From contig OZ024929.1 in the NCBI GenBank assembly GCA_964017235.1, positions 22,007,464 through 22,071,463 of the forward strand: DNA of 64,000 bases, in the 5' to 3' direction. Origin of the DNA: Sabellastarte sp. h YS-2021 (taxonomy: Eukaryota; Annelida; Polychaeta; Sabellida; Sabellidae). This document shows positions 216-38,005 of this stretch, piece by piece. The position numbers and the translations under genes were made by a program. The notes below the pieces were generated by a model. That model had not been told where the DNA came from and did no database searches. It saw nothing but the letters and a program-made list of their open reading frames with translations. Position 1 is the first letter of the stretch. The number at the start of each line of letters is the position of its first letter.

Positions 216-1649
216 GTTTTTATTTTGATAAATTTTACTCCCTGTTAGAAGTTGGGGTATGCAAGAATAAAACATTTTCGGTATCCCAGATTCCGCCTAT
301 TTGGTAGACAATATCTCCCCCTCCAATATTGGCCGATATTGAAATATTTTACATTCATTATATCTATATGCACACAGCCAAATGATTTACCCACTATATA
401 CATAGCTCGTTTCCACAAATAACATGGGTGAAACCCAATATTCCATCAGATTTGCTACCCAATATCAGTCTAACCAATAATTATATCCCCAGACGAAAGT
501 CGGGGATATATTGGAGTCAGGTCAGTCGCGCCGCCGCTGTAGAAATTTCCTTGTGTACGCGATAACTCAAAACGGGTCAGTATTTTTTTTTCAAACTTGG
601 TACACATGTTAAGGGTGCCCAAAGGAAGATCCCTATTTTAAGGTGACCTTAAATTCCAAATAATAAAGAACTTATGGCCACCTTAAGGTCAGAAATTTGA
701 CTTGGCCACTTAGAGCCCTCTATGTCACAAACTGTGAAGCTCATCTTGCTAAAATTTTACCTGAGAACACATTAATATACTCTTAGTACATGTGCCGAAA
801 ATCAAGACTTTACATTGAGGATTAAATTGTGTTTGAGGCCCATAAAGACCCTACTGGGACTTAGGGATTTTTTCCTGTATTTTTCACATATTTTGCCCTA
901 TAATTTGGAAGTGGTAATTCTGATGAGTCTCAAACTGCACTGGATATAACTTTCATATGTAATCTGTGAAAAATTTAAAGGCTGTAGGTTTAACTATAAG
1001 GTCGACTCAAGGTCTCAATATTGTCCACAGAGACCCAATTTATGGACTTTTTGCCACTTTAAAGCACTGTAGCTTTCAAACAATGTCTCTCATCTAAGTG
1101 AAATATCATCTGGGAATATATTGATATGTTTTCCTTATATGTGCCAAACATCTAGGGCTTTAAGAGACATTTAACCTGTGAATGAGGACCTTAAACACCC
1201 TACTCAAGTGATGTTTTTCCACATTTTTCACATATTTTGCCTTTTAACTTTGAAATGGTAAGTCTGAAAAGTCTCAAACTATGTTAGATATAACTCCTAT
1301 ATGTAATCTCCCTCTGTAGAAAATTTAAAGTCTGTAGTTTAAGGTCACTTTAAGGCCTCTAAAATGCCAACAGAGACCCAATTTATAGACTTTTTGCCAC
1401 TTTTAAGCCTATAGCTGTCATACTATATGACTGATAGAACTGAAATCTCGTACGGGAATATATTAATATGTTCTTTTTACATATGCCAAAAATAAAGGTT
1501 TAAATAGACATTTAACCTTCATATGAGGACCCTAAACACCAACCTGAGTGACCCTTTTTGACATTTTTCACTTATTTTGCCCTGTAACTTGGAATTGTAA
1601 GTCTGATAAGTATCATATTGTATTAAATATATTTTCTATATGCAGTATT

Positions 1650-1879
1650 GGGGCCACGGTGGCAGAGTGGTAACACTCCTGCCTTCCACCTCTGAGGCCG
1701 GGATTCGATCCCCGTGACGGCTTTAAGTGGGAAAGCTGGTAGTTGCTTGCCGTTGGTCGGCAGTTTACAGTACACAACCCTAGCGAACTCTATGTACTGG
1801 TTTCCTCTGCCCTTCCAACTACCCGTCGTGATATGACCTGTATAGTGTTGAAAGCGACGTAAAACCCCAAATAAATAAA
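1650..1879 (+). mobile_element. tRNA-derived SINE with 13-bp target duplication
   Basis: The head is tRNA-like: an A-box-like segment (TGGCAGAGTGG) at about 1661 and a B box (GGGATTCGATCCCC) at about 1713. A non-tRNA body ends in GCGACGTAAAACCCCAAATAA. The element is flanked by the perfect 13-bp duplication TATATGCAGTATT (1637-1649 and 1880-1892), which proves retroposition into the family A array. The same body segment (TTTAAGTGGGAAAGCTGG) recurs, diverged, on the minus strand near 35640. Confidence 0.85.
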
Positions 1880-2542
1880 TATATGCAGTATTTGTTTGTA
1901 AAAAATTTAAAGTCTGTGGCTTTGATTTAAGGTCACCTTGAGATCTCTAAAATGTGTACAGTGACCTAGTTTATAGACTAATGGCTCTTTGAAGCCCTGT
2001 AGCTGTCAAACTATGTGACTGATAGAGCTGAAATCTCATCGGGGAATATATTAATCTATTGTTTTAATTTATCAGTGACATTGAAATTTTTCTAAGGAAG
2101 GTCTGCTAAGTTGCCAACTTAAAATTTGAATATTAATAATGTTATGGCTATATTAAGCTTTAAGAAATTGTGTTTTTATTCCTCCGCTCAAGCGTTTTTA
2201 ACTTTTTAAAAGCAAACTGCTTACATACATTAAAACAGGCTGAAGGGACATTTTTATCATCTGGTGAGCTTAAACTGCTAATAGTAATGACATTATAGCC
2301 TACTTACAGTGAAAAAGGGGATTTTCAGCCCTTAACGAGTCCAGTACAATTTAACTTACCTCAGTTAATTTTGATACAGCTCATGCAGTCATGAACACAC
2401 TTCATTTGATAATAACACATATATAAACACAAATTTTAAGTACATTTTACAACACTTTTTTCATGTGGCTTAGTCATTTATAAATCTTGATTATACAATT
2501 TTCCTGTTGGGCACCCCTTATTGATATGTTTGACTTTATTAT

Positions 2543-3973
2543 TATGTCCACCCCCCAGTGCTTGCTTTTTCCGCCGTCCGGCGTCACACTTGGTTTCCAG
2601 ACATTTTAGGCAACAGTTCTTATCCTATCTTTACCAAATTTAGCATGCAGGTTTATTGGGTTAATAGCTTGTATGGGATTGCTTTTGGTGATGATAGCTC
2701 TATAGCTAACTCAGAGTAATAGCTACTTTGCTACTTTTGAGTATCTCTTTGGTTTCCAGACATTTAAGGAATGCTATTAAGCCTTGCTTTCTGAAATTTG
2801 GTATGGAGGTTCATTGGGTTAATAGCTTGTATGTGATTGCTTTTGGGGGGAATTGCTTCATAGATGAGCGAGTAATTAATTAAATAAATGAGTGATTGGC
2901 TATTTTGAGTACTGAAAAAGGCTGAAAAGAGTGATTTCGTCGAAATTTTCGACCCACAGGGTATCTGAGAAATGTACTCTTTGCAATTTTCAAAAGAGTT
3001 TCCCCTCCCCAAAAATGGCGACCATTTTGAATTTTCGAATTTTTGCCCAAAATGGCAAAGCACAAAATTGCTTCTGTCTGCTTAACCGTGCGAGATAGAG
3101 CGATTTCGTCGAAATTATCAAGCAACAGGGTATCTGAGCACTGTACTCTTGGAAATTTAAATAAAATTTTCCCCTCCCCAAAAATGACAGCCATTTTGAA
3201 TTTTCGAATTTTTGCCAAAAATGGCAAAACACAAAATTGCTTCTATCTCCTTAACTGTGTGAGATAGAGGGATTTCGTCAAAATTTTCAACCCACAGGGT
3301 ATCTGAGTAATGTACTCTTCGTAATTTTCAAAAATTTTCCTCTTCCCACATATGGCGGACATATTGAATTTTCGAATTTTTGCCCAAAATGGCAAAACAC
3401 AAAATTGCTTCTATCTACTTACCGTGCGAGATAGAGCGATTTCGTCGAAATTTTCGACCCACAGGGTATCTAAGAAATGTACTCTTGGCAATTTTCAAAA
3501 AATTTTCCCCTCCCCACATATGGCGGCCATTTTGAATTTTCGAATTTTTGCCCAAAATGGAAAAACACAAATTTGCCTTAACCGTGCAAAATAGAGTTAT
3601 TTCGTTGAAATTTTCGACCCATAGGGTATCTAAGAAATGTACTCTTGGCAATTTTCAAAAAATTTTCCTCTTCCCAAAAATGGCGGCCATTTTGAATTTT
3701 CAAATTTTTGCCAAAATAGAAAAACAGAAATTTGCTTCTATCTTCTTAACCGTGCAAAAAGGCATGAAGCTGAAATAATTTACATGTACACTAATAAATA
3801 TTTAAGCATCATTGATATATTTTACAAATGAAACAGGGTCTTGTAAGACTACTGTACAATTTTGGCAAAAGGTTCATGGGGTGGACATTACACATGATAA
3901 TGTGTGTTCTTCTATGCTATCCTGTTTCTATTCATATGTCGCAGCTACTATCAACAGGGCGTCCTATTTCTAG
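2543..3973 (+). mobile_element. Family B element copy 1 (Helentron/HINE-like)
   Basis: It begins TTATGTCCACCCCCC; the second half of the 5' hairpin is lost here but present in copy 2. A leader with GCCGTCCGGCGTCA and a 169-bp tandem array (2915-3770) follow. Near the 3' end the inverted arm GGGGTGGACAT lies at 3878-3888, followed by the perfect stem-loop ACACAT-gata-ATGTGT at 3890-3905. Similarity to copy 2 stops at CTAG (3970-3973) before T. It interrupts family A copy 1, so it inserted later. The many short frames it contains are products of the repeat. Confidence 0.6.
2915..3770 (+). repeat. 169-bp tandem array (family B core)
   Basis: About five units carry GATTTCGTCGAAATTTTC, GACCCACAGGGTATCT and the odd palindrome AAAATGGC-G-GCCATTTT. 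The same monomer forms the arrays at 12180-13245 and, about a fifth diverged by eye, at 7500-8473. Confidence 0.85.
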
Positions 3974-5255
3974 TTGCTAATATTAGATTAACCAAGCCTT
4001 TTGGGGGCAAATTTGTAAAATGGATACTAAATCAACCATTGATTATTTCTGAGTATTTTTTACCCCTTTTACATACATTAGAGTGTACGGGGATTTCATT
4101 GGTAGCCATGAAGTTATTTCAGTTGATAATCACACATTTATAAATTCCAATTTTAAGTACAGTATCTCTTATCCAACACTTTGTTCTTGTGGCTTAATAA
4201 TTTATAAATCTGAATATATAATTTTCCTGTCGGGAATTCCTCATTGATATTTATTTGATTTTTTATTGCTTTAGCTCTATAAATTGTCATTGATATTAAA
4301 ATCCTTCAAAGGAAAGCCCTGTCTACTTTCAATATATTAATGATATTATGGCTATCTTACACTTTAAAAATGGTGTTTTTATCCCTATGCACACTGAGTT
4401 TTTAAACATTTGAAAATCAAAATTGTTACCCCTATTAAAATTGCCAAAGAGGAATACTCTTCATTTGTGGTCACCTTGAAGTCCCATTAGAACTAATTTC
4501 ACTTCAGTCACTTAATAGTCACACATGTATAAATTCCCAATTATACAACATAATATAACACTTTTTCTGATTTTTATAAACAGATCTTTGGGGATAAGTT
4601 GTGCAAATTGCATATAGATTGGAGCATTGAGACAGCTACAGAAGAAAAACACTATTCACAACACCCACTGAGCCATATTGTTCAATTGTTATCTATATTT
4701 ATTGACACAGTGTCAGAAAGAGATGTGGGGGAGGAGAGGGGGACTTCATTACCTAATAAAACAAAGGGGACGGAGGACTGAGATTGTGTTGCATATGCAA
4801 TGTATATGGACCACATATATAGGTAATGAGGAACTGAGTAACTGAAAAACAGTGCAAATTCTAAAAATAATATAACAAAATAATACTATAAATAATATTT
4901 TTTTTAAAATAATGTTTTATTTGCCTACAAATATAGAAACAGATAAGCTCTCTTGGGATTATTAATTTAGAATGGACATTCAATCATCAATCATTTAAAT
5001 ACTTTGAAAATAGGTTCAGCGTTATCATTGCATAAAGATTGAAAATATGATATGTACAATAATTTTTGTTTTAGTTGAGTTATGTATTCGACGTCTGGGG
5101 ATACACCATTTTCCTTGGAAAATAAAATCATAGTAGACTGAAGTACTGAAGTTCATATATTAGTGGGTAATTGTGTTTTCCTAATATTTATGGCATACAG
5201 CAAATGGCTTCCATCAAAAATTCCCAATCAAAACCTGTGGCATGAGTGATGACCT
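3974..5255 (+). repeat. Right-hand part of family A copy 1
   Basis: AT-rich sequence homologous to 29600-30870 of the second family A copy. A block with TGTTCTTGTGGCTTAATAAT and AATTTTCCTGT also occurs around 2460-2510, so this tail module is itself duplicated. From about 4780 the two copies align well (GGACCACATATATAGG). No gene is visible; the 60-codon frame at 4599-4781 has no recognisable motif. Confidence 0.5.
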
Positions 5256-5734
5256 GTCTGGGGATATGTTGGCGCCGAGTTGGCCCAATCTAGTTAATTA
5301 AGCGTCCCTGAAAAGGGCGCTTATTTGGTTTCGAGTCAGTTTCCTTGCCGCCGCCGCATTATGGTCTACCTTGAATATTACACCCTTATTATTGGAGGCT
5401 TTTTAACCATATTTGGCAGTTATATACCTTAGGTGTGGGAAAATTTTTCCACATGCTTAAATTTGACCTTTCATCTTTATCAAGGTCACATGATCAAAAA
5501 TAGTTTTTTCGGGTACACCCGCCCGTCATCGCAGTTCAAGAAAATCTACTGACCGCAGAGGCTTGTAACTTCATACATGTGTTCATACTATCAAAAACGC
5601 GAGCTGATTAGATTTTGGGAGCAATCCGATGAAAATTGACCGATTTATGGGCGATTTTCTCACAGGTACCAATCAGAAAGCTTAAAATTCATGTGAACCC
5701 CCCTATTATCTTCTTAAGTATTGCATTTAGAGCC

Positions 5735-7119
5735 ATAAAATGTATTGGGAGGTAGTAGGAAACCATATGTGGAGAGTTTAGAAAGCAAGTCAAATTTCCC
5801 CTACGACCCCCCTGTGGGGGCCAAACTGGGGTCATAAAAGAGCCAATTTCGTCTTTTTCCCTTATATCTCCTTTATTCTTGCTTCTACAGCTTTAGAATT
5901 AAGAGGTATTGGGAAACCATATGTGAAAAGTCAAGATAGCAGGTCAGATTTACCCCCAGACCCCGCCTTATGGGTCAAACTGGGGCGCATAAAATAGCCG
6001 ATTTTGTGTTTGTGCCTTATATCTCCTTTATTCTTGCTTTTAGAATTTTACAATGTACAAATGTATTAAGATGTATTGGGAAACCGTATGTGAAGAGTCT
6101 AGATAGCCGGTCAGATTTACCCCTGGACCCCCCCTTACGGGTCAAACTGGGGTCATAAAATCGCCTATTTTGTGTTTTTGTCTTTTATCACTTTTATTCA
6201 TCCTTTTACAACTTTAGAATGCATTAAAAGGTATTGGAAAACCTTATGTGAAGAGTCTAGATAGCTGGTCAGATTTACCCCTGGACCCCCCCTTACGGGT
6301 CAAACTGGGGTCATAAAATCACCTATTTTGTGTTTTTGTCTTTTATCACTTTTATTCTTCCTTTTACAACTTTAGAATGCATTAAGAGGTATTGGGAAAC
6401 CATATGTGAAGAGTCTAGATAGCTGGTCAGATTTACCCCTGGACCCCCCCTTACGGGTCAAACTGGGGTCATAAAATGGCCGATTTTGTGTTTTTGCCTT
6501 ATATCTCCTTTATTTTTGATTTTAGAGTTTAGAATGTATTAAGAGGTATTGGGAAACCTTATGTGAAAAGTCTCGATTTACCTCCGGATCCCCCCTTATG
6601 GGTCAAACTGGGGTGATAAAATAGCCGATTTTGTGTTTTGGCCTTTTATCTCCTTTATTCTTGCTTTCACAGCTTTAGAATGTATTAAGAGGTATTGGGA
6701 AACTTTATGTGATGAGTCTAGATAGCTGGTCAGATTTACCCCCGGATCACCCCCCATGGGTCAAACTGTGGGTCGTAAAATAGCCGATTTGGTGTTTTTA
6801 CCTCTTATCTCCTTTATTCTTGCTTTTAGAGTTTTAGAATATATTAAGAGGTATTGGAAACCTTATGTGATGAGTCTAGATAGCTGGTCAGATTTACCCC
6901 CGGATCACCGCTTATGGGTCAAACTGGGGTCATAAAATAGCCGATTTTGTGTTTTTGCCTTTTATCTCCTTTGTTCTTGCTTTTAGAGCTTTAGAATGTA
7001 TTAAGAGGTGTTGGGAAACCTTATGTGAAGAGGCTAGATAGCCGGTCACATTTACCCCCGACCCCCCCTTATGGATCAAACTGGGGTCATGAAATAGCCA
7101 ATTTTGTGTTTTTGTCTTT
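5735..7119 (+). repeat. 158-bp tandem array
   Basis: The landmark GTCAAACTGGGGTCATAAAA recurs at 5974, 6141, 6299, 6457, 6602, 6760, 6918 and 7075. Spacing is mostly 158 bp, with one 145-bp and one 167-bp unit. It forms the core of family D copy 1; single units also occur at 11365-11552 and 33427-33480. Confidence 0.9.
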
Positions 7120-7499
7120 AGTTATATCTATTTAAGCGTCCCGCAAGGGACGCTTGTTTGTGTATGGGAGAGCTTCCGGCTCCGCCGGCTCCGCATTTTG
7201 TTTTCCTTATAACTCTGTAACCGTTAGGCGGATTCTTTTCAAATTTGGCAGGTTTAGGCAGTATCCTTGGGGAATTTTTTTGAATATGCTGCAGTGACAT
7301 TTCAACCAATCAGAGAGGTCACATGACCAAAAATGTCTTTTTTCGATGGGGAAGCTTGTCCGGATGATAACTTGAAAGGAATTTTATCAATTCACCTGAA
7401 ACTTGGCAAATACATTCATTCTATTAAAATCTGGAAATCATTAGATTTTGGCATTGATTGGTCAAGAAATGGCCGAGTAATTAATGATTAATTAATCAT

Positions 7500-8473
7500 T
7501 ACGAATTTTCCAAATAAGGAAAACACAAAAATGCTTATATCTCGAAAACCGTGCTAGAATAGCTAGATAGAGCGATTTCGACGAAATTTTTGACCCACAG
7601 GGTATCTCTGCGGAGTAGTTTTCCCAATTTTCAAAAAATTTTTGTCTCGCCCAAAATGGCGGCCATTTTGAATTTTCGAAATTTTCGCAAAAATTGCAAA
7701 ACACAAAAATGCTTATATCTCAAAAACCGTGCTAGATAGAGCAATTTCGACAAAATTTTTGACCCGCAGGATATGTCTGCGGAGTACTTTTCCCAATTTT
7801 GAAAAAATTTTTGTCTCGCCAAAAATGGCGGCCATTTTGAATTTTCGAATTTTTCGCAAAAATTGCAAAACATAAAAATGCTTATATCTCGAAAACCCTG
7901 CTAGATAGAGCGATTTCGACGAAATTTTTGACCCACAGGGTATATCTGCAGAGTAGCCATGCCAATTTTCAAAAAAATTTTATCTCGCCAAAAATGGCGG
8001 CCATTTTGAATTTTCGAATTTTTCGCAAAAATTGCAAAACATAAAAATGCTTATATCTCAAAAACCCTGCTAGATAGAGCGATTTCGACGAAATTTTTGA
8101 CCCACAGGTTATCTCTGCAGAGTAACCATGCCAATTTTCAAACAAAAAATTTCTCGCAAAAAATGGCGGCCATTTTGAATTTTCGAATTTTTCGCAAAAT
8201 TGCAAAACACAAAAATGCTTATATCTCGAAAACCGTGCTAGATAGAACGATTTCGACGAAATTTTTGACCCACTGGGTATCTCTGCAGAGTAGCCATGCC
8301 AATTTTCAAAAAAATTTTATCTTGCCAAAAATGGCGGCCATTTTGAATTTTCGAATTTTTGTGCAAAAATTGCAAAACACAAAAATGCTAATATTTCGAA
8401 AACCGTGCTACATAGAGCGATTTCGACAAAATTTTTTATCTTCAGGGTATCTCTGCAGAGCAGCTATCCCAAA
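7500..8473 (+). repeat. 169-bp tandem array (family D copy 2, left block)
   Basis: Units with AAATGGCGGCC at 7654, 7823 and 7992 are exactly 169 bp apart. It is the same monomer as in family B but uses TCGACGAAATTTTT and CTTATATCTCGAAAACCGTG. The apparent 70-140 codon frames on both strands are repeat artefacts. Confidence 0.85.
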
Positions 8474-10864
8474 GAGCTTTCACTTGGTGAAGTTTCAGAC
8501 CCATAGCTAATTGCTCACCTACTCAAAAAGAGTAAATGCGAATTACCTCTAAAAGTATTGCAGATGGCCAATTTTTCTCAAATAACTCATTCACCTACTT
8601 TTGGAAGAGCTTTCACATGGTGAAGTTTCAGACCCATAGCCAATTACTCACCTACTCAAAATGAGTAAATGCGAATTATCTCTAAAAGTATTGCAGATAG
8701 CCAATTTTTCTCAAATAACTCATTCACCTACTTTTGGGAGAGCTTTCACATGGTGAAGTTTCAGACCCATAGCTAATTATTTACCTACTCAAAATGAGTA
8801 AATGCTAATTATCTGTAAAAGTATTGCGGATACCCAATTTTTATCAAATAACTCATTCATCTACTTGTGGGAGAGCTTTCACATGGTGAAGTTTCAGACC
8901 CATAGCTAATTACTCACCTACTCAAAATGAGTAAATGCGAATTATCTCTAAAAGTATTGCAGATAGCCAATTTTTCTCAAATAACTCATTCACCTACTTT
9001 TGGGAGAGCTTTCACTCTGTGAAGTTTCAGACCCATAGCTAATTACTCACCTACTCAAAATGAGTAAATGCGAATTATCTCTAAAAGTATTGCAGATAGC
9101 CAATTTTTCTCAAATAACTCATTCACCTACTTTTGGGAGAGCTTTCACTTGGTGAAGTTTCAGACCCATAGCTAATTACTCACCTACTCAAAATGAGTAA
9201 ATGCGAATTATCTCTAAAAGTATTGCAGATAGCCAATTTTTGTCAAATTAATCATTCACCTACTTTTGGGAGAGCTTTTACTTGGTGAAGTTTCAGACCC
9301 ATAGCTAATTACTCACCTACTCAAAATGAGTAAATGCGAATTATCTCTAAAAGTATTGCAGATAGCCAATTTTTCTCAAATAACTCATTCACCTACTTTT
9401 GGGAGAGCTTTCACTCTGTGAAGTTTCAGACCCATAGCTAATTACTCACCTACTCAAAATGAGTAAATGCGAATTATCTCTAAAAGTATTGCAGATAGCC
9501 AATTTTTGTCAAATAAGTCATTCACCTACTTTTGGCAGAGCTTTCACATGGTGAAGTTTCAGACCCATAGCTAATTACTCACCTACTGAAAATGAGTAAA
9601 TGTGAATTATCTCTAAAAGTATTGCAGATAGCCAATTTTTCTCAAATAACTCATTCACCTACTTTTGGGAGAGCTTTCACTTGGTGAAGTTTCAGACCCA
9701 TAGCTAATTACTCACCTACTCAAAATGAGTAAATGCGAATTATCTCTAAAAGTATTGCAGATAGCCAATTTTTCTCAAATAACTCATTCACCTACTTTTG
9801 GGAGAGCTTTCACTTGGTGAAGTTTCAGACCCATAGCTAATTACTCACCTACTCAAAATGAGTAAATGCGAATTATCTCTAAAAGTATTGCAGATAGCCA
9901 GTTTTTCTCAAATTAATCATTCACCTACTTTTGGGAGAGCTTTCACTCTGTGAAGTTTCAGACCCATAGCTAATTACTCACCTACTCAAAATGAGTAAAT
10001 GCGAATTATCTCTAAAAGTATTGCAGATAGCCAATTTTTCTCAAATAACTCATTCACCTACTTTTGGGAGAGCTTTCACTTCGTGAAGTTTCAGACCCAT
10101 AGCTAATTACTCACCTACTCAAAATGAGTAAATGCGAATTATCTCTAAAAGTATTGCAGATAGCCAATTTTTCTCAAATTAATCATTCACCTACTTTTGG
10201 GAGAGCTTTCACTTGGTGAAGTTTCAGACCCATAGCTAATTACTCGTCTACTCAAAATGAGTAAATGCGAATTATCTCTAAAAGTATTGCAGATAGCCAA
10301 TTTTTCTCAAATAACTCATTCACCTACTTTTGGGAGAGCTTTTACTTGGTGAAGTTTCAGACCCATAGCAAATTACTCACCTACTCAAAATGAGTAAATG
10401 CGAATTATCTCTAAAAGTATTGCAGATAGCCAATTTTTCTCAAATAACTCATTCACCTACTTTTGGCAGAGCTTTCACTCTGTGAAGTTTCAGACCCATA
10501 GCTATTTATTCACCTCAAAATGAGTAAATGCTAATTATCTGTAAAAGTATTGCGGATACCCAATTTTTATCAAATACTCATTCATCTACTTGTGGGAGAG
10601 CTTTCACATGGTGAAGTTTCAGACCCATAGCTAATTATTCACCTACTCAAAATGAGTAAATGCGAATTATCTCTAAAAGTATTGCAGATAGCCAATTTTT
10701 CTCAAATAACTCATTCACCTACTTTTGGGAGAGCTTTCACTTGGTGAAGTTTCAGACCCATAGATAATTATTCACCTACTCAAAATGAGTAAATGTGAAT
10801 TATCTCTTAATAGTATTGCAGATAGCCAATTTTTCTCAAATAACTAATTCACCTACTTTTGGAA
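8474..10864 (+). repeat. 133-bp tandem satellite, about 18 units
   Basis: GAGCTTTCAC recurs at 8474, 8607, 9006, 9139 and so on, at 133-bp steps. The unit contains GAAGTTTCAGACCCATAGC, a small inverted motif ACTC-aaaat-GAGT, and GTATTGCAGATAGCCAA. Most units are nearly identical. Edge units and one unit near 10500 (small deletion) are more diverged, the usual sign of homogenisation from the centre. Confidence 0.95.
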
Positions 10865-10929
10865 GACCTTTCACACACGAAAATGAAAAATTGTGAATAT
10901 CTCGGAAAAGCTATTTCTTCTGCTTTAAT

Positions 10930-11225
10930 GCTCGGCGGGAGATACACACCACGGCAGTGGTCTTGGCAAAAATTTTTGTCTCCCCAAAAATGGTGGCCAT
11001 TTTGAATTTTCAAAGTTTTTGCAAAACACAAAAATGCTTATATCTCGAAAACCGTGCTATATGGAGTGAACTCAACAAAATTTTGGACCTGCTGGGCATC
11101 TCTGCAGAGTAGCCATGCCAATTTTCAAAATATTTTTGTCTCGCCAAATATAGCGGACATTTTTAATTTTTTTATTTTTTGCAAAACACAAAAATGCTTA
11201 TATCTTGAAAACCGTGCTAGATAGA
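10930..11225 (+). repeat. 169-bp monomer remnants right of the 133-bp array
   Basis: Two diverged units (AAAATGGTGGCCATTTT near 10986; ATATCTCGAAAACCGTGC) match the block at 7500-8473. The 133-bp satellite therefore sits between two halves of a 169-bp array. Confidence 0.75.
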
Positions 11226-11337
11226 GCAGACTGCGCTGACTTTGGTTGCCACAACAGTATAAGGCTAGAAACGAAGCATTTTCTTAATACTTTAGCACTC
11301 ACCTTTATATCCTTTTCGGGACGCTTTGTTTTTGCTA

Positions 11338-11364
11338 CCCCCCCCCCCCCCCCCCCCCCCCCCC
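11338..11364 (+). repeat. Poly-C tract, 27 bases
   Basis: An uninterrupted run of C at the 3' stem-loop position of family D copy 2, just before the 158-bp array resumes. It is able to form i-motif and G-quadruplex structures. The length may be imprecise for technical reasons. Confidence 0.9.
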
Positions 11365-11552
11365 ATGGGTCGAATTGCGGTCATAACATACCCGAATTTG
11401 TGTTTTTGCCTTACATCTACTTTAGTCTTGCTTCTACAGCTTATTAAGAGGTATTGGGAAACCTTTTGTGAAGAGTCTAGATAGCCGGTCAGATTTACCC
11501 TCTGACCCTCCCTTATGGGTCAAACTGGGGTCATAAAATAGCCGATTTTCAA
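11365..11552 (+). repeat. 158-bp array resumes
   Basis: About 1.2 units of the family D copy 1 monomer (GGTCGAATTGCGGTCATAAC; GGTCAAACTGGGGTCATAAAA near 11518). They continue the array interrupted at about 7120. AT-rich tail sequence without a gene follows to 11756. Confidence 0.75.
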
Positions 11553-11756
11553 TTATATCTAAATAGAAATGAGCATTATTCATAAGATATAAATAGGCTT
11601 GTGGGAACATTGACCTTTTATTTACTCATTGGGATAGATGTGGTCACAGCATTGTGTCATAAACTTCTTGCCTTTCCAAAGGCTTAAATTTTACTATGCC
11701 TTTTTCTAAAATGTATATGACATTTATAAAGCACTGTTACTCTTTAATTAAGTAGT

Positions 11757-13448
11757 TATGTCCACCCCCCTGGGGGGTGGATATATTATTTTTGCTTTTT
11801 TCGCCGTCCGGCGTCCGATGTCCGGCGTCACGCATGGTTTCCGCTCATTTAAAGGAAAAGTATTAGAGCTATTGTCACCAAATTTGGTATGCAGGTTTAT
11901 TGGGTCAGTAGCTTGCTTGGGATTGCTTTTGGCTGTTGTGCCTCTTTTGCTTACTGAGTAATACTTAAGTACAGCTATTTTCAGTACCCATTGGTTTCCG
12001 TGCATTTAAGCCAAAATAATAAGAGATATTTTACTACAATTTTGAATACAAGATTGTTATGTCCATAGCTCGCTTGGTATTGCATTTGGGACTGATAGCT
12101 TTGTCAGTACATGAGTAATAGCCATTTAGGTACTTCATTGTGTATTTTCAGTACTACTTTTGAGTAATTTGCTAATATCTCAGAAACCGTAAGAGATAGA
12201 GCGATTTCGTCGAAATTTTCGACCCACAGGGTATCTAAGGAATGTAATATTTGCAATTTTCAAAAAATTTTCCCCTCCCCAAAAATGGCGGCCATTTTGA
12301 ATTTTCGAATTTTTGCCAAAAATGGCAAAACACAAATTTGCTTCTATCTCCTTAACCGTGTGAGATAGAGCGATTTCGTCGAAATTTTCAACCCACAGGG
12401 TATCTAAGGAATGCAATCTTTGCAATTTTCCAAAAATTTTCCCCTCCCCAAAAATGGCGGACATTTTGAATTTTCGAATTTTTGCCAAAAATGGCAAAAC
12501 ACAAATTTGCTTCTATCTCCTTAACCGTGCCAGATAGAGCGATTTCGTCAAAATTTTCGACCCACAGGGTATCTGAGCATTGTACTCTTGGCAATTTTTA
12601 AAAAATTTTCCCCTCCCCAAAAATGGCGGCCATTTTGAATTTTCGAATTTTTGCCAAAAATGGCAAAACACAAATTTGCTTCTATCTCCTTAACCGTGCG
12701 AGATAGAGCGATTTCGTCGAAATTTTCGACCCACAGGGTATCTGATCATTGTACTCTTGGTAATTTAAAAAAAATTTTCCCCTCCCCAAAAATGGCGGCC
12801 ATTTTGAATTTTCGAATTTTTGCCAAAAATGGCAAAACACAAATTTGCTTCTATCTCCTTAACCATGCGAGATAGAGCGATTTCGTCGAATTTTCAACCC
12901 ACAGGGTATCTAAGGAATGTAATCTTTGCAATTTTCAAAAAATTTTCCCCTCCCCAAAAATGGCAGCCATTTTGAATTTTCGAATTTTTGCCCAAAATGG
13001 AAAAACACAAACTGGCCTTAACCGTGCAAAATAGAGTTATTTCGTTGAAATTTTCGACCCATAGGGTATCTAAGAAATGTACTCTTGGCAATTTTCAAAA
13101 AAATTTCCTTTTCCCAAAAATGGCGGCCATTTTGAATTTTCAAATTTTTGCCAAAAATAGAAAAACAGGAATTTGCTTCTATCTTCTTAACCGTGCAAGA
13201 TAGAGTGATTTCGTCAAAATTTTCAACCCAACCAATGCAAAAAGGCATGAAGCTGAAATAATTTACATCTACACTAACAAATATTTAAGCATCATTGATA
13301 TATTTTACAAATGAAACAGGGTCTTGTAAGACTACTGTACAATTTGGGCAAAAGGTTCATGGGTGGACATTACACATGATAATGTGTGTTCTTCTATGCT
13401 ATCCTGTTTCTATTCGCATCTACTATCAACAGGGCGGCCTATTTCTAG
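11757..13448 (+). mobile_element. Family B element copy 2
   Basis: The complete 5' hairpin at 11758-11784 has arms ATGTCCACCCCCC and TGGGGGGTGGATAT. A leader with GCCGTCCGGCGTCC and a 169-bp array (12180-13245) follow. The inverted arm GGGTGGACAT lies at 13361-13370 and the stem-loop ACACAT-gata-ATGTGT at 13372-13387. Homology to copy 1 ends at TTTCTAG before TT (13445-13448). It lies inside the tail of family D copy 1. Confidence 0.65.
12180..13245 (+). repeat. 169-bp tandem array (family B copy 2)
   Basis: Landmark AAATGGCGG at 12283, 12452, 12621 and 12790, exactly 169 bp apart; about six units. Several overlapping 65-105 codon frames on both strands are explained by the absence of stops in one phase of the monomer. 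Confidence 0.9.
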
Positions 13449-13731
13449 TTTTATGGTGTAATTTTCAACCTGTTATAAGTATTGATGCTTTATGCTTTCT
13501 GAGCCAGAGCATTTATTCAATTAACTTTTCACAATTTATAACCATAGAAAACAAAATAAAGCTTAAATTTTTCTTTCATGTTAATGCATAAACTTCCACA
13601 CTGTCTGGTTAACTTTCACTTCTTCTCTCAGCACTGCATATTTTTATTTTCAAAAACCTTTTTCTACTGTATATTATATTGCGGTGAACCTTTTGGGACG
13701 CTTAGTTTTTGTTAGCAAAACATTCTTCTAG

Positions 13732-26271: not shown

Positions 26272-27365
26272 TACCCCACAGCCCTTAAGGGCTGTCGGGG
26301 TATTGTTTTCACCCATGGTGTCCGGATGGGCGGGCGGGCGGCGGGAAAAAGTTTTTTCCGGGCTGTATCTCAGAAACCGTAAGGTGTAGGAAGTTGATAC
26401 TGGGTAGGGACATTGGTTAGGAGGTGTAGGTGTGCAACGTCATGGTCTGACCTTGATTTGACCTTGCCGTTGTGACCTTGACCTATAAAATCTTGTCCGG
26501 GCTATATCTCGGAAACTGTAAGGTGTAGGAAGTTGATACTTGGTAGGGATATTGGTTAGGGGATGTAGGTGTGCGACGTCATGGTGTGACCTTGATTTGA
26601 CCTTTGACCTTGCCGTAGTGACCTTGACCTATAAAATCTTGTCCGGGCTATATCTCGGAAACTGTCAGGTGTAGGAATTTGATATGTGCTAGGGACATTT
26701 GTTAGGGGGTGTAGGTGTGCAACGTCATGGTGTGACCTTGATTTGACCTTTGACCTTCCCGTTGTGACCTTGACCTATAAAATCTTTTCCGGGCTATATC
26801 TCAGAAACCGTAAGGTGTAGGAAGTTGATACTTGGTAGGGACATTGGTTAGGGGATGTAGGTGTGCGACGTCATGGTGTGACCTTGATTTGACCTTTGAC
26901 CTTGCCACAGTGACCTTGCCCTATAAAATCTTGTCCAGGCTATATATTGGAAAGCGTAAGGTGTAGGAAGTTGATATTTGGTAGGGACATTGGTTACGTT
27001 GGGATTTGACCTTTGACCTTGCCGTAGTGATCTTGACATATAAAATCTTGTTCGGACTATATTTCAGAAACCGTAAGGTGTGTGAAGTTGATACTTGGTA
27101 GAGACATAAAGAGTGTTGAATTTTAGTTTACTGATTAATGCTGTCATTTTGTTATTGAATTATCTTGTTTTAATACTTCATCTTTACATGCATTATCTTT
27201 CTTTTAAACATTATTTTCTTCATTTAAACATTGTTTGGAACTTTATATAACTGACAGTGCTCTGAAAGTATCCTGAACTTTGTACTGGTACAATACTTCT
27301 CATGGTGTTGAAAATATTTCCCTAGGCTGTGGGGTACAGGCATCTCTGATACTATTTTTCAAAAA
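26272..27365 (+). mobile_element. Family C element, complete copy
   Basis: The 5' hairpin at 26272-26302 has arms TACCCCACAGCCC and GGGCTGTCGGGGTA. A leader with CACCCATGGTGTCCG and GGCGGGCGGGCGG and an array of about five 146-bp units follow, some 139 bp because ACCTTTG is missing. The AT-rich tail ends in the inverted arm GGCTGTGGGGTA (27325-27336). The expected stem-loop GCATC-tct-GATaC comes next. It is non-coding. This is the best reference for the family in the window. Confidence 0.75.
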
Positions 27366-27728: not shown

Positions 27729-30700
27729 TATATCCCCAGACGAAAGTCGGGGATATGTTGGATTCAGGTCCGTCGCGCCGCCGCCGCCGTAGAAATTTCC
27801 TTGTGGACGCGATAACTCAAAAAGGGATTAATATTTTTTTTTCAAACTTGGTACACATGTTCAGGATGCCCAAAGGAAGATCCCTATTTTAAGGTGACCT
27901 TAAACTCCCAATAATAAAGAACTTATGGCCACCTTAAGGTCAGAAATTGCACTTTTGACCACTTAGAGCCCTCTAGGTCACAAACTATGAGGCGTATCTG
28001 GCTTAAATTTTACCTGAGAACACATTAATATATTCTTAGTACATGTGCCGAAAATCAAGACTTTAAGTTGAGGAGAAAATTGTGTTTGGGGCCCATAAAG
28101 ACCCCACTTAGGACTTTTTTCCTAGATTTTTAACATATTTTGCCCTATAATTTGGAAGTGGTAATTCTGATGAGTCTCAAACTGCTCTGGGTGTAACTCT
28201 TATATGTAATCCTTGTCTGTGAAAAATTTAAAGGCTGTAGGTTTACCTGTTAGGCCGACTTGAGGTCTCAAAATTGCCCACAGAGACCCAATTTATGGAC
28301 TTTTTGCCACCTTCAAGCACTGTAGCTTTCAAACAATGTCTCTCATCTAAGTGAAATATCATCTGAGAATATATCAATATGTTTTTCTTGTATGTACTCC
28401 AAAATTTAGGCCTTTAATAGACATTTAACCCATGTATGAGGACCATAAATCCCCACCCGAGTGACCCTTTTTAGATATTTTTCACATATTTTGCCCTGTA
28501 ACATGGAAATGGTAAGTCTGAGAAGTTTCAAACTGTATTAGATACATATTCTATGTGTAATCTTAGTATGTGACAAATTTGAAGTCTGAAGCTTTAATTT
28601 GAAGGCAACATTGAGGTCTCTGACGGGCTCCCAAAGACCCAGTATTTGGACTTTTGCCACCTTTAAGCCCTGTGACTGTTAAACTATGTGACTGATAGGG
28701 CTGAAATCTCACCTGGGAATACATTATTATGTTCTTTTTACATGTGCCAAAAATCATGGCTTCAAGTAGACATTTAAACTGTGTATGAGGACCATAAAAA
28801 TTTTCTAAAAGCATATCCACCCTAGCCTGAATCATCCTCCTGGCGTTCTCCGTGGTGTTCGACCCCTGTTATGTCCCTGGACACAGAATTTTGTTGACTG
28901 CTTTTTGTTTTGTTGCGCCTTAGAGTCCTCTTGTTTGGGGAGATTAAGCGCTATAAAAGTCCAATTAGAATAGAATAGAATAGAATAAACACCCACCCGA
29001 GTGACCCTTTTAAGACATTTTTCACATATTTTGCTCTGTAACTTGGAAATGGTAAGTCTGAGAAGTTTCAAACTTTATTAGATATATATTCTATGTATAA
29101 TCTTAGTATGTGACAGATTATAAATCTGAAGCTTTAATTTGAAGGCCACATCGAGATCTCTAAAAGGCCCACAGAGACCCAATATTTGGACTTTTTGCCA
29201 CCTTTAAGCCCTGTGACTGTTAAACTATGTGATTGATGGAGCTGAAATCCCATCTGGGAATGCATTATTATGTCCTTTCTACATGTGCCGAAAATCAAGG
29301 CTTTTAGTAGACATTTAACCTGTGTATGAGGGCCATAAACACTCACCCAAGTGACCTTTTTTGACATTTTTTTCCGTATTTTGCCCTGTTATTTGGAAAT
29401 GCTTAGTGTGACAAGTCTTAAACTGTATTATATATAATTTTTGTTTGTTATGTTTGTCCCCCAAAAAGTTTCAGCTCTGTAGTTTAATTGCTAAGGTCTC
29501 TTTAACAATTGTAAAATGCCCACAGAGACCCAGTTTATGGATATTATACCACTTTAAAGCCCTGTAACTGTCGAACTATGTGGGTCATAGAGCTGAAATC
29601 TTTGAATTTTTCAAAGGAAGTGCCTGTCTATTTAAATTTTTATTAATAATGTTATGGCTATCTTAGGCTTTTAAGTACTTATTTTTGTGTGTTATCTGTG
29701 TGTCAGTTTTTAACTTTTTAAAATGAAACTGGTTAAACATATTCAAGTAGGCAAAATGGACACTGTTATTTTCTGGTGAGCTATAAGTCCAATATTAATG
29801 AAATTATAGCCTTATGTAGTAAAAATAGGGGATTTTTAACCCTCAACTAGCCCAGTTTTATTCAGTTTGCCTCAGTTAATTTTGACACAGTTCCTACAGT
29901 TACTAACTCATTTCAGTTGATAATCACATTCTTAAAATTCTCAATTCTGAATTATTATTATAAATCTGTTCTTGTGGTTTGATAATTTATATTTAATTCT
30001 GGAGGTATATAATTTTCCTGTTGGACATTCCTTATTTATATATTTGATTTTATTGTAGTGATAAGATTAACTGAGCTTTTTGTATTTGATTACCCCTTTT
30101 GTTTGTTTACCATTTGTGCTGTAGCACTCTCTTTGTAGTCCCACCCCCCCCATCCACCTCTGGGACCTCCAGCTATTGAGTGACACTAAATAAACAAAGG
30201 TATTGAATGATATCAAATGAGAAACAAAGAACCAGACTTTTCAGTGGGGTTGCAGATCTTCTGTAACAGTGAGAGAGGTGTGGAGAAGGGGAGAGGGGTG
30301 GGGTGGGGTTGGGAGATGGGGTTTGCTTCATTATCTAATAAGACAAAGGGGAGTCAGAACTGAGATTGTGTCACATATTTAGGTTGCATATATATGGACC
30401 ACATATATAGGAATTGAGGAAATGAATAACTGAAAAACAATGCAAATTCTAAAAATAATATAACAAAATAATAATATAAATAATATATAATTTTTAAATA
30501 ATATTTTATTTGTCAACAAATATAGAAACAGATATGCGCTTTTGGGATTATGAATCATTTAAATAGGTTCAGAGTCACCCTTTGCAGGAAGATATGCTCT
30601 TTTGGGATTATTAATTTGGAATGGACATTCAATCATCAATCATTTAAATACTTTGAAAATAGGTTCAGAGTTATCATTGCAGGAAGATTGAAAATATGCT

Positions 30701-30910
30701 CTGTTGAGTTATGTATTTGGCGTCTGGGGATACACCTTCTTCCTTGGGAAGATATAAACTTAGTAGATTGATGTGCTGAAGTTCATATAACTTTTCCCAA
30801 GATTTATGGCATACAACAAATGGCTTACATAAAAAATTCCCGATCAAAACCTGTGGCATGAGTGATGACCTGTCTGGGGATATGTTGGCGCCGAGTTGGC
30901 CCAATCTAGT
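27729..30910 (+). mobile_element. Family A element copy 2, complete
   Basis: The 5' hairpin at 27730-27756 has arms ATATCCCCAGAC and GTCGGGGATAT. A CpG-rich leader (GTCGCGCCGCCGCCGCCG) and the phrase ATAACTCAAAAAGGG...CAAACTTGGTACACATGTT follow. A roughly 350-bp array (landmarks 28304, 28654, 29195, the last gap widened by an insertion) precedes a long AT-rich tail. The inverted arm GTCTGGGGATAT lies at 30872-30883, the stem-loop TTGG-c-GCC-gagtt-GGC-CCAA at 30885-30904, and TCTAGTT after it. The ends are defined by comparison with copy 1. No coding capacity. Confidence 0.7.
28798..28990 (+). mobile_element. Non-LTR 3' end with (TAGAA)n tail inside family A copy 2
   Basis: About 190 bp ending in GATTAAGCGCTATAAAAGTCC and four TAGAA-type repeats interrupts a family A unit exactly within ATAAACACCCACC. 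The GCGCTATAAAAGT tail motif is typical of LINE or LINE-mobilised SINE 3' ends. Similar tails occur near 37630 and 39526. Confidence 0.6.
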
Positions 30911-31845: not shown

Positions 31846-33740
31846 TAAGTGGCCTGTCAGGGACGCTCATTTGTTTTCACTGAAGTTCGACTGATCGCCG
31901 CCACTGCAGGATTATGGCCTCCCTTGAATTACTTCTTGGGCTTTCAAATTTTTCTTTCCTTCTTATCTTTCTTTAAACTATAGGGGTTTATGTTTTTCTT
32001 TCTCCATGGATTATACTGAAAATAACGTCAGAAATTTCATTCAACTTTTGCATGTATATGTAACTGGACATAGGTAAGTGCCATGCAATAAGATGACCTT
32101 AAGCTCATAATAACAGAATGATATTCACTTTAAGTTTGGCAATTTTTGAAAAGTGTTTCAAATACTGTGCAATTCTAGGCATGTTTCAGTTGTGGATATA
32201 ACAAACCTTGGACAGAACCTTCCGGAAAAGATTACATTAAACTCCTTACGTTAAACTATTATTGACTTTAAGGTTGTGACGATTGTTTCAGTGTTTGGAA
32301 GATATTTGATGTGCTAAGATTGTTTCATCGATATTCATCATGTACATATATTTAGACAAAAGAATGGGTCTCTTTTGTAAGTTTACAATAAAACGCTGAT
32401 ATTTTAGGAACTTGTGAGTTTAAGGTTGTAACAGTGTGGTGTCACTCAGCTGTGATGGATCACCTATTAGATTAGCATCTTCTTCACACTTTGTTTCTGG
32501 AAAATATGTCAAAAATTGCTTATAGGATGAAATTCAAATTTGGTATGTGGGTGTTGCTGGTCATTGATATGTGCCTTATTTTAAGATGACCTTAAACTCC
32601 TACTGATAAAACATTTTTAGTGAATTTTACTTTTGCGAATTGTGGGCAGTAGCTAAGAGATGGCAACACAGATTCAAATCAATTTTGTAAGTGGGTGTAA
32701 ATGTTCTTTAAAATGTGGCCTATTTTAAGGTGACCTTAAACTCCTAGGGATAATATAACTATATTGAATTTAGATTTTCCAATTTCAGGAGAGTATTTCA
32801 AATCTGCAGGACAGATTTAATTTAAATTTGGTATGTTGACGAATCTAGTCCTGAAGGTGTGCCCTATTTTAAGATGACTTTAAACTCCCATGTGTAAAAG
32901 AATGTTACTGAGCCAACTTGTATGATTCCAAAAAGTAACCTTGAACAGAGTCTACATGATTAACATGACGTTAAACTCTTGACATTTGCATTGACTTACA
33001 TTCAGTTTAAGGTTAGGACAAATTTAAAAGATATTTTTATGGTTTCTTTGCTTTCTACATTCCTGCACACATTGGAGTGGCTTAGTTTTTTGGCAACACC
33101 TGACAACAAGTGTTGCCATGGCAACACTATGTTTCTTGGGCTTAAAAATCTTCATTGGGGTTCTTTGCATTTCAAACTCCTGCACACATTACCTGATTAA
33201 TTTTTCGGTAATACCTAGCCACAAGTGTTGCTATGGCAACACTTTTTTCTGTTTTGTGTACTCATATTTTTTGTGGGTTCTTTGCATTCCAAACACCTGA
33301 ATGAATAGGAGCTGGTTAGCTTTTCAGCAATATCTGGCAACAAGTGTTGCCATGACAACACTTTTTTCTGTTCCTAGGTTGTGGATATGAAAAGTCCTGA
33401 AGAAGACCTGTATGGTAAAGTGACCTAACACTTATGGGTCAAACTGGGGTCATAAAATAGCAGATTTTCTGTTTTGGCTTTATATCTACTTTAAAACTAC
33501 TCTTACAAACTATAGCATTAAATAAAATTATCTTTACCGAATTTATGACCATAGGAAACCAAATAAAGCTCACATTTTTCTTTTATGTTATTGCATAAAC
33601 TTCCACACTGCTTAATTTTAACTTTTTCTCTCAGTACTGCATGTTTTTCTTTTCAAAATCTTTTTCTATTTTATACTATAAAGCATCTAACCTTTTGGGG
33701 CACTTTGTTTTTGTTAGCAAAAACATTTTTCAGTTAAAAT
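31846..33740 (+). mobile_element. Family D element copy 3, diverged
   Basis: A decayed 5' hairpin lies at about 31846-31868 (right arm GGGACGCT) with a leader CGCCGCCACTG. Degenerate units share TATTTTAAGGTGACCTTAAACTCC. An X-box minisatellite (33060-33370) and one 158-bp unit (33427) follow. The tail is homologous to 13540-13700, with arm GGGGCACTT at 33697-33705 and a perfect stem-loop TTTTTG-ttag-CAAAAA. Its core differs from the other family D copies. Confidence 0.6.
33060..33370 (+). repeat. Three tandem units (115-119 bp) carrying palindromic X-box motifs
   Basis: AGTGTTGCCATGGCAACACT (33109-33128) is a perfect 20-bp palindrome. Near-copies with one or two changes lie at 33224-33243 and 33343-33362. 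The core GTTGCCATGGCAAC equals the canonical RFX (X-box/EF-C) binding palindrome. The units also share CACACATT and GGGTTCTTTGCATT. Confidence 0.8.
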
Positions 33741-33779
33741 TAATTGCTAACTTATACTGTATGTCTCAATATCACCTAG

Positions 33780-34676: not shown

Positions 34677-36650
34677 ATATATGTGGGTCCCATGGAAGCA
34701 TTTCCTTTTAAAATATGTGTCATTTTTAAGGTCCACACATTTTTATATATACTGGACAGTATCCCTGTGATCACTTATCTTAATCTTACAAGGATATTAG
34801 TTAGGTTCAAATTTGTTGAGCAAACAACTCCAAATTTTGCCACTGCTCCTGCTGCTTCGAAAAACAGTTTTTAATACCATGTGCTACATTTGTACAGACA
34901 ATAAGATTTGAAACCAATTATATAGAATATATATACATGTATATATGTTTTCTAACTGGAATCTTGTGTAAAACTACTTCAATTTTATTTTTGTATTATA
35001 TCCAAATAATACTTTTATAATCCAAATTATTATATACTTATTATAATAAACTGATTCCTTATACCTTTTATATGTAAACTTGAACTTAAAAATATGTTCT
35101 CCAAAATCAATATTCAAACTGTACAGTTACACAAAATGCCCCTAACCTCGAGATTGTGTCACATTGCTGGTAACATACAAATACTGAATACATCTCACTG
35201 CACAGACAAGATTCCAAAAGCATTGCTTTTGCAAGCAATTTGTAATTGTATTTGCTGTCTTCACAGCCTAACATAAGAATTATTTTTGAAATATTGGCTG
35301 TCTCCTTACACGGTAACAAATATCAATGCCTTTAAATCTCGCATGCGCAACAAGTAAATGAGTACTTTGCACTTTATTCTCGGCTCACCTCCGTGTGCTC
35401 TTGTTTTAATATTTTGTATTGCAGTTAAGAGACATTTTTAACTCTTTGAAAGTGAGTTAAAATACTTATGGCATCAGATCATTTCTCCATTACTTGTATC
35501 AGTTATATGTTATTGGCGAGTTGTTATGGTTGATTGATGATTTGCGTGTGGCAACACTTATCACATACAACCAGTTGTTCAGTTCATGGATGGCAGCAAT
35601 GCAAATTAGTTGATCAATATTCTGTCAATGTTGGGGCATCAGCATCCGGCTTTCCCCTTAAGGTGTGGGGCCAAAATTGAACCGACAGCCTCAGAGTTGA
35701 GAGGCAAGTGGTCACTACTTCACTGTGCTTTAGTATTTTATTTGACAGAATGCTTGCAAAAAAGTTGACAGTGGTCTGATCAATTTTATTCAAAACACAG
35801 GAGTCTTGTTGGTGTAATATACTGAGACTTTTGATTAATATGCATATAAAATATTGTAACATTTATGCATAGTTTTGGAGCAAAAGTTCTTTTAAGTTGT
35901 GATCATGTAAAGGAGATGATGATTTTGTAGAATGCAAACCTTATTTTGAGATTAAATATGCAGCAATGAATGGACAGATCAGTGACTTGACCTCAAAGAC
36001 CCTTGTTCATCAAACCTTTGATCCCTGCTTCAAGGTTATAAAACTTTTATATCATAAATGCCTTCACCTCCCCCCCCCCCCATCCCATGAAAGTGAAAAA
36101 CAACATTGTGGAGCATTGAGTTTATAAATACAATTCTTTTTGTACATGTCCTGTTAAACAAGTTACAACACTAAATACTATTACATGCCATATAAAACAC
36201 AAAACATGACAAGGTCGATCACCTCAAGGTCAGAGGTCACATGATATCATGTCTTATATCTCCCTGCGAAATAATTATTGGCCTTATGGTTTTGGGATGT
36301 CAATCCCATTACAAAAATAACTGGCTTTAAATCTGTTTAACAGAGACAGAATTCACTTTTGATTCCTGCTTACAAAGGATGCGTTATTCTCTTATTCCTC
36401 TGTAGGTTGGAAATGTCAAAAAGAGCTGGGAAATCACGGGCTGCAAATCCTTTGATGGTGTCAGACTTGACTTGGAAACTTTTTTTCAAAATCAAAAATA
36501 GGTCCGCCTTCCGAAAATGTCATTTCTCTTCATTATTTTTGGTCCCTGCACTTCAGAATTTGAAAGCAGCTGATGGGGCAAATCATATTTAACATACGAC
36601 ACTGTTTCAAAGTCAAGCAGTAGAATTACTATATAGACCTTGTATCTCCC
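34677..36650. other. Mostly featureless AT-rich stretch
   Basis: Apart from the minus-strand SINE remnant at 35620-35735, a short C run near 36070 and a Gag-free AT-rich background, I see no gene. The frames of 60-80 codons lack motifs. Confidence 0.4.
35620..35735 (-). mobile_element. SINE remnant (same family as 1650-1879), minus strand
   Basis: Read on the minus strand, a tRNA-like head (ACTTGCCTCTCAACTCTGAG, GGTTCAATTTTGGCCC) is followed by CCTTAAGGGGAAAGCCGG. That body segment matches TTTAAGTGGGAAAGCTGG of the SINE at 1650-1879. It is diverged, without a visible target duplication. Confidence 0.5.
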
Positions 36651-36654
36651 ATTT

Positions 36655-38005
36655 TATTTTTATTGTTTTCACCCATGGTGTCCGGATCGGACACCTTGAT
36701 TTTACCTTTGACCTTGCTGCAGTGACCTTTAGTTTGCAAATCTTGTCCGGGCTATATCTCGGAAACCGTAAGGTGTAGGAAGTTGATACTTGGTAGGGAC
36801 ATTGGTTAGGGGGTGTAGGTGTGAAACGTCATGGTCTGACCTTGATTTGACCTTGCTGCAGTAACCTTGACCTATAAAATCTTGTCCGGGCTATATCTCG
36901 GAAACCGTAAGGTGTAGGAAGTTGATACTTGGTAGGGACATTAGTTAGGGGGTGTAGTTGTGCAATGTTATGGTCTGACCTTGATTTAACCTTTGACCTT
37001 GCTGTAGTGACATTGACCCTTAAAATCTTGTCCGGGCTATATCTCGGAAACTGTAAGGTGTAGGAAGTTGATATTTGGTAGGGACGTTGGTTTGGGGGTG
37101 TAGGTGTGCAACGTCATGGTCTGACCTTGATTTTACCTTTGACCTTGCTGTAGTGACCTTGAGTTTGAAAATCTTGTCCAGGCTATATCTCAGAAACTGT
37201 AAGGTGTAGGAAGTTGATACTTGGTAGGGGCATTAGTTACGGGGTGTAGGTGTGCAACGTCATGGTCTGACCTTGATTTGACCTTGCCATAGTGACCTTG
37301 ACCTATAAAATCTTGTCCGAGCTATGTCTTGGAAACTGTCAGGTGTAGGAAGTTGATATTTGGTAGAGACATTGGTTAGGGGGTGTAGGTGTGCAACGTC
37401 ATGGTCTGATCTTGACTTGACCTTTGACCTTGCCGTAGTGGCCTTGACCTATAAAATTTGGTCCGGGCTATATCTCGGAAACCGTAAGGTGAAGGAAGAG
37501 GATACTTGGTAGGGACATTGGTTAGGGGCTATAGGTCTGTATTATCATGGTGTGACCTTAATTTGACTTTTGACCTTGCAGTGACCTTGACCTTTAAAAT
37601 CTTGTTGCACCTTTGGATCTGTCTTTTGATGCAGATTAAGCACTGTTAAAGTCATATTAGAATTTATTAAGAATTTTACTTTTATAACTTCCCATTGTAA
37701 GAGATGGAATTTCATCAAGTGAGCCGCAGATATTACCACTTCTGTATGCATGGTAATATTCAAAACATCTAAACCATAATTCAGCCATGCAGATGTAGAT
37801 AAAGAGTGTTGAATTTTAGTTTACTGGTTAATGCTGTCATCTTGTTATTGAATTATCTTGTTTTAACACTTCATCTTTGCATGCATTATCTTTCTTTTAA
37901 AATTATTTATCTTTGCATGCATTATCTTTCTTTTAAACATTATTTTCTCCATTTAAACATTGTTTCGACCAGGTATCTCTGATGCTATTTTGATCCAAAG
38001 GGTTT
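36655..38005 (+). mobile_element. Family C element, 5' hairpin lost
   Basis: It starts inside the leader (TTTTCACCCATGGTGTCCG). About six regular units follow, with landmark TCTTGTCCGG at 36741, 36880, 37026, 37172 and 37311 (alternating 139 and 146 bp). A LINE-like tail fragment (GATTAAGCACTGTTAAAG) interrupts near 37630. The family tail ends in GGTATCTCTGATGCTATTTT, the 3' stem-loop, without a clear arm. Confidence 0.7.

Follow-up and report, generated by a model that had tools for sequence, protein, structure and literature searches.

Nested repeat families with Helentron-like ends and satellite-like arrays in a 64-kb stretch of the Sabellastarte genome

In Helitron2 elements, the 5′ asymmetric terminal inverted repeat (ATIR) pairs with the bases just downstream, forming a 5′ hairpin, and the 3′-ATIR lies immediately before a 3′ hairpin; pairing of the 5′ and 3′ arms was proposed to undo the 5′ hairpin and to set the replication endpoint (Bao & Jurka 2013, PMC3627910). 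In oyster HINEs, a subterminal inverted repeat (subTIR) of 11-12 bp is accompanied by a complementary repeat of 7-12 bp, located 1-12 bp away (Vojvoda Zeljko 2020, PMC7492417), and the Fusarium Helitron2 elements FoHeli1/2 carry hairpins at both termini (PMC5148889). Statements on these papers and on Thomas 2014 (PMC4067079) refer to the portions of their text available to us. Here, a stretch of 64,000 bp from the genome of the annelid Sabellastarte sp. h YS-2021 (1.786 Gb, 647 contigs) was analysed (G000:C3:22007464-22071463, hereafter the window), and its repeat copies were compared with other genomic loci, designated by L-numbers (e.g. L039-L058). Four repeat families from the window, A to D, are with a probability of about 95% non-autonomous rolling-circle transposons of the Helitron2/Helentron group (HINEs). 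This rests on the polar pairing of ends (in A), on empty sites and insertion in T runs, on the large number of copies and on one open frame for Rep, helicase (Hel) and endonuclease (EN) in an element with D-type 5′ sequence.

The design has been published, and the families are ordinary in kind and well explained. The comparison with Helitron2 and with the oyster elements is one of design. With Helitron2 they share the terminal hairpin formed from the 5′-ATIR (lost in one copy, B1), the subterminal 3′-ATIR and, for C, insertion between TTTT and T/C; the 3′ arm lies roughly 20-30 bp from the end in Helitron2, whereas in B it lies 78-85 bp away (PMC3627910). Oyster Cg_HINE elements similarly combine a 5′ subTIR and its complementary repeat, a satellite-like core and a 3′ subTIR with palindrome, at T-rich sites without target-site duplication; in these, related flanks enclose unrelated arrays, whereas here an array is common to B and to one D copy (D2) with differing ends, and the available text describes no coding partner (PMC7492417). 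DINE-1/HINE elements and Helentrons correspond in their Rep/Hel/EN partner, subTIRs, 3′ stem-loop, TT insertion, variable terminal Ts and empty sites (PMC4067079). The subTIRs described there for other species are inverted repeats or palindromes, whereas the A and C hairpins here contain a one-base bulge, a feature that the available portion of PMC3627910 does not mention. FoHeli1/2 likewise have a hairpin at both ends and a 3′ end ATTTT, as in C, but are fungal and insert between TNAT and T (PMC5148889). The initial annotation of the window had suggested that the fully palindromic 5′ end might be undescribed; 5′ hairpins are already present in PMC3627910, PMC7492417 and PMC5148889.

Paired ends, copy number and target sites

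Within window positions 1-38005, 27 hairpins preceded by TT were found, compared with a mean of 10.25 in dinucleotide shuffles. Hairpins with an arm inverted again 0.8-9 kb downstream gave 10 rows in the same region, compared with 0.6 on average and never more than 3 in 40 dinucleotide shuffles. Eight rows, including two duplicates listed one base apart, represent six distinct family ends (A1, A2, B2, C, D1 and D2); the two others (14315 and 29080) do not correspond to an end of any family.

Genome-wide, exact 5′ hairpins numbered 7,191 for A, 5,847 for C and 11,292 for the D type, and those of B 4,220 with a wobble and 2,508 perfect; since both strands of a perfect palindrome can score, the perfect B and the D counts may be inflated. 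A 3′ ends were found 8,230 times at ≤3 mismatches. The reversed-pattern control was zero in every case. On contig C1, four B hairpins are spaced 4,673-4,674 bp apart (G000:C1:17091016-17105064), which looks like a B-bearing unit repeated in tandem. A probe of 209 bases from D2 matched 23 places; at 10 of these the match covers the whole probe with 96-100% identity, and D2 accordingly appears young. Two D2 copies (L062/L063; G000:C3:55558980 and 55563515) are separated by 4,535 bp and share their left flank, representing a tandem duplication or a rolling-circle multimer.

Polarity was determined for A using the first 100 5′ ends listed, all on C1, and the first 100 3′ ends listed. For 82 of the 100 5′ ends, a 3′ end follows on the same strand within 10 kb downstream, and for none on the opposite strand. 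The distance between both ends has a median of 3,242 bp and clusters around 1.62, 3.23 and 3.69 kb.

TT precedes the arm in all 20 A loci (L039-L058) and in all 8 D loci, the window copy included; the queries used began with TT themselves. All eight A 3′ ends seen, six from the 20 loci and two from the window, close with CTAG, followed by TT. Distinct C copies in which both ends are present number sixteen (17 rows, one copy appearing twice); each starts at a T run or TT and finishes with CTATTTT.

Filled and empty sites were compared for B1, C and D; none was obtained here for A itself. At B1, the filled site has TTTATTATT before the element and CTAG followed by TTGCTAATAT at its end, and the empty site in L051 reads TTTTATTGCTAATAT, so that TT stands on both sides when filled and once when empty. 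For C inserted in A, the filled site reads GAGTTTTT before and TAACTT after the element, versus GAGTTTTTAACTT in several A copies (L041/L052 versus L054, L046, L058 and others; L028 versus L046/L058). For C in D3-type repeats, CACTTTTTT precedes and CTATTTT followed by CTG closes the insertion, versus CACTTTTTTCTG in the window (by eye); a case of D in A was seen at L046, also by eye. For B2 in D1 and for D1, no spanning match was found, the B2 right-flank query having begun one base early. No host duplication is shown, as only Ts vary between filled and empty sites. Similarity had been expected to stop at the proposed ends and insertion to occur at TT; in the loci seen, flanks indeed differ outside the ends, and insertion is in TT or T runs, with no duplication beyond Ts.

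These sites bear on two other origins. The families could derive, in the manner of MITEs, from a cut-and-paste (DDE) transposon that has subterminal inverted repeats and duplicates a TT target; such an origin is very improbable, even though short inverted arms lie near both ends and the TT pattern at B1 formally fits a 2-bp duplication. The ends are asymmetric, with the 5′ arm at the tip and the 3′ arm 22-85 bp inside the element, followed by a stem-loop, and there are no symmetric terminal inverted repeats (TIRs); the C sites differ by variable Ts only, and the D relative described below encodes Rep/Hel/EN. Canonical Helitrons (Helitron1), having 5′ TC, 3′ CTRR and insertion between A and T, deserve equally little credence. 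CTRR does fit the CTAG ends of A, B and D1, but C ends in CTATTTT, 5′ TC is absent and a 5′ hairpin present, and the empty sites, lying in T runs or TT, contradict A-T insertion.

A coding relative of family D

The Helitron_like_N profile matched 24 places in the genome. One of these, on C3, contains a stop-to-stop frame of 2,245 codons (G000:C3:168671532-168678266) with matches to Helitron_like_N (4.4e-26) and PIF1 (7.4e-28) and, at its C-terminus, to Exo_endo_phos (3.6e-6, over its cut-off). In this element, Rep, Pif1 helicase and AP-type endonuclease are combined in one protein. A D-type 5′ end, TT-AAGCTTCCCTGAAAAGGGCGCAT, lies 5,860 bp upstream of the frame, and the sequence following it (L071 1170-2183) aligns with 5295-6319 of D1 at 86% identity (1,034 aligned bases), including part of the 158-bp array. 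Because an open Rep/Hel/EN frame occurs in an element with such a D1-like 5′ kilobase, D is taken as putatively Helentron-derived. The DNA downstream of the frame resembles parts of the D3 interior at 67-83% identity and is interrupted by two C elements, the second of which harbours a D2-type element, and by two stretches judged LINE-like by eye from their frames. By their design, ends and target, A, B and C were assigned to the same group and probably belong to it. The Helentron/HINE-like layout recognized in the initial annotation is thus supported, for D also by this coding relative.

The N-terminal part of the Helentron frame (L059 2033-4501) contains DUF6570 as well as a highly repeated basic stretch. 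A scan of L059/L060 for hairpins and arms yielded none of the four arms.

In the mechanism that we infer, a Rep/helicase/endonuclease supplied in trans would nick the 5′ end beside a T, and a single strand would be displaced up to the 3′ signal, i.e. the inverted arm and stem-loop. Pairing of the 5′ and 3′ arms would then define the end or close a circle, and the strand would be joined into a T-T site without target duplication.

Several observations weigh against an origin as HINEs. Of the 100 listed A 5′ ends, 18 lack a 3′ end within 10 kb, and for 9 a 3′ end of the same strand lies on the wrong side; for 14 of the 20 A loci, no 3′ end occurs in the fetched 6 kb. Eight of nine alignments spanning B1 are too diverged at the junction for a clean reading, and a 2-bp TT duplication is indistinguishable from T-T insertion of an element with terminal Ts. 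The coding element was matched to D by its 5′ end, the sequence read stopping short of its 3′ end. The search suggested in the initial annotation, for a Rep/Hel Helentron sharing these ends, yielded an element with a D-type 5′ end; for the ends of A, B and C, no coding counterpart was found with one of the 24 Helitron_like_N places examined. The least credible explanation, satellite arrays spread by recombination with incidental terminal motifs, would account for the long arrays, for the arrays common to B and D2 and for the spacing of about 4,673 bp between B hairpins on C1, but is contradicted by fixed paired ends in thousands of copies and by precise empty sites.

Nested elements in the window

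All elements mapped in the window are on the + strand; their 3′ end coordinates were rechecked except for D2 and D3. The HINE-like element A1 (483..5293) opens with a hairpin (483..509) of the form ATATCCCC-A-GAC GAAA GTC-GGGGATAT, containing one bulged A. An inner 3′-like module (5093..5123) consists of GTCTGGGGATAC and an immediate stem-loop, and the 3′ end (5256..5293) is formed by the inverted arm (3′ ATIR, 5256-5267), a stem-loop and CTAG (5290-5293) before TT. Similarly, A2 (27730..30909) has a 5′ hairpin at 27730-27756, an inner module at 30722-30753, a 3′ ATIR at 30872-30883 and CTAG at 30906-30909. Nested in A1 is B1 (2544..3973), with a 169-bp array (2928-3755), a 3′ arm (3878-3888) and CTAG (3970-3973), its 5′ inner arm being lost.

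D1 (5300..13731) starts six bases past the A1 end and contains D2 and B2. Its 5′ hairpin (5300-5322) is followed by a 158-bp array (5739-7119), and it closes with a 3′ arm (13695-13703) and CTAG (13728-13731). D2 (7134..11337, right border approximate) is nested in the 158-bp array and carries a perfect 5′ hairpin (7134-7155) and arrays of 169 and 133 bp; its 3′ end is truncated, the arm at 11318 lacking stem-loop and CTAG and continuing into poly-C. B2 (11758..13448) has a hairpin with a G.T wobble (11758-11784), a 169-bp array (12166-13230) and CTAG (13445-13448). A diverged D-type copy, D3 (31847..33733), was absent from the initial annotation; it has a mismatched 5′ hairpin, 119-bp repeats and a D-type 3′ stem-loop (by eye). 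The full C element (26272..27358) comprises a 5′ hairpin with a bulged C, a 146-bp array, a 3′ ATIR (27325-27336) and the end CTATTTT. Further C-type sequences are a 5′ end with array (16614..17292), in which no C 3′ end was seen, a diverged copy (18996..20056; 5′ end 18996, 3′ arm near 20038) and a 5′ fragment (21419..21765).

Arms, inverted 3′ copies and most stem-loops lie where the initial annotation had placed them, with several exceptions (B1, D2 and the A arrays). A hairpin was said to open every family, which holds for A, B2, C and D but not for B1 (2544), where loss of the inner arm leaves no 5′ hairpin. Each family was also credited with a central tandem array; the one in A1 belongs to the nested B1, and A's own repeats are diverged, with a period of about 350 bp and 72% likeness. 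The families had been called unrelated, which holds for their ends; between B and D2, however, the 169-bp arrays share about 75-80% identity, so the families are not wholly unrelated, and ends and cores mix. A single inverted 3′ arm had been described, but A has two (A1 5093 and 5256; A2 30722 and 30872). The stem-loop following the 3′ arm was seen by eye in A, B, C, D1 and D3 and is missing in D2 (11318) and L051; the CTAG end, claimed for A, B and D only, was recovered in A, B and D1 but not in D2, and C ends in CTATTTT.

In 3 of 8 cases, an A 3′ end is followed by the 5′ end of another family, either directly (L039, L051) or six bases on (A1). End-to-end stacking as a general pattern was rejected, as only 8 exact A-to-C junctions occur genome-wide versus 8,230 A 3′ ends; this number is a lower bound, the exact pattern missing two known A-to-C cases, and no enrichment is claimed. 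In L068, a D 5′ end directly follows a C 3′ end (GATGCTAT-TTAAGCG), one element having inserted at the 3′ T run of another. Within A1, positions 1643-1879 fall outside the A1-A2 alignments, end in AAATAAATAAAT and have a SINE or tRNA-like look (by eye). Elsewhere in the window, a reverse-transcriptase-like remnant was seen by eye at 33880-34640, and a 286-bp inverted repeat (41186-41471 and 43538-43823; 95% complementary, 2,066 bp apart) possibly represents a TIR element.

Hairpin bulge and inner 3′ module

In A hairpins, a T is missing from 22 of 22 distinct copies fitting the pattern (a wider listing had 26 rows), leaving a bulged A, whereas 6 of 6 exact 3′ arms carry this T; the A2 5′ hairpin, also found in L009, was left out of the arm count. 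In C, all 35 hairpins contain one extra base (28 C, 7 T), which is absent from 18 of 18 3′ arms. The length predicted by the bulge was found in 99 of 100 listed places for A and 100 of 100 for C, few letters being shown in these listings, so that other loop lengths could give the same total. The large counts are not independent events, since copies share descent. Computed DNA energies placed the arm-arm duplex below the hairpin in 6 of 6 cases tried (A, -13.6 versus -8.7; C, -16.1 versus -12.6 kcal/mol), duplex and hairpin values not being strictly comparable. As a universal rule the bulge was rejected: B is mixed, as seen in the wobble and perfect counts above, and so is D, with D2 perfect, D1 bulged and D3 and L055 mismatched.

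Paired changes occur in the arms. In D, a T-A to G-C change occurs on both sides (L054), and paired changes distinguish D subfamilies; between A and its sister subfamily A′, A-T changes to G-C on both sides. The A′ arms (GTATCCCC) were found at L021 3030 (+), L031 2547 (-) and L022 292 (-), with a possible A′ 3′ end TGTCTAG before TTTT.

Of the eight A copies that have a 3′ end, six (both window copies, L049, L051, L057 and L058) contain the inner 3′-like module, which lies 150-163 bp ahead of the 3′ arm. The arm of this module corresponds to the 5′ arm found in A′ (L021, L031). In an alignment of the six copies, inspected by eye, both sides of the module's stem vary (ATTTTC/GAAAAT, ATCTTCC/GGGAAGAT and ATTTTG/CAAAAT).

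The bulge of one base that the 5′ hairpins of A and C contain and the 3′ arm lacks may be new; one narrow literature search found no paper on a bulge in a Helentron hairpin. The second, inner 3′-end module of A may be new as well, the literature not having been searched for double 3′ modules. One tentative and rather unlikely reading of both, a refinement of the arm-pairing idea in the available text of PMC3627910, is that the A and C 5′ hairpins are deliberately imperfect and that the serial 3′ modules of A represent a bypassed, retained terminator. The constant bulged base would weaken the 5′ hairpin or mark it for Rep; the 5′ arm, matching the 3′ arm exactly, would then pair with the displaced 3′ arm, which would outcompete the hairpin and set the end of replication, and the stem of the inner A module would be kept by paired changes. 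If the bulge is functional, the published arm-pairing model of the replication endpoint would become directly testable.

Taken as HINEs, the four families would make this repeat-rich stretch of a large genome one built by nested Helentron-type elements carrying satellite-like arrays, with one family tied to an element with an open Rep/Hel/EN frame. The genome would thereby offer a setting for tests of end recognition, containing a coding element together with non-autonomous partners that have thousands of ends.

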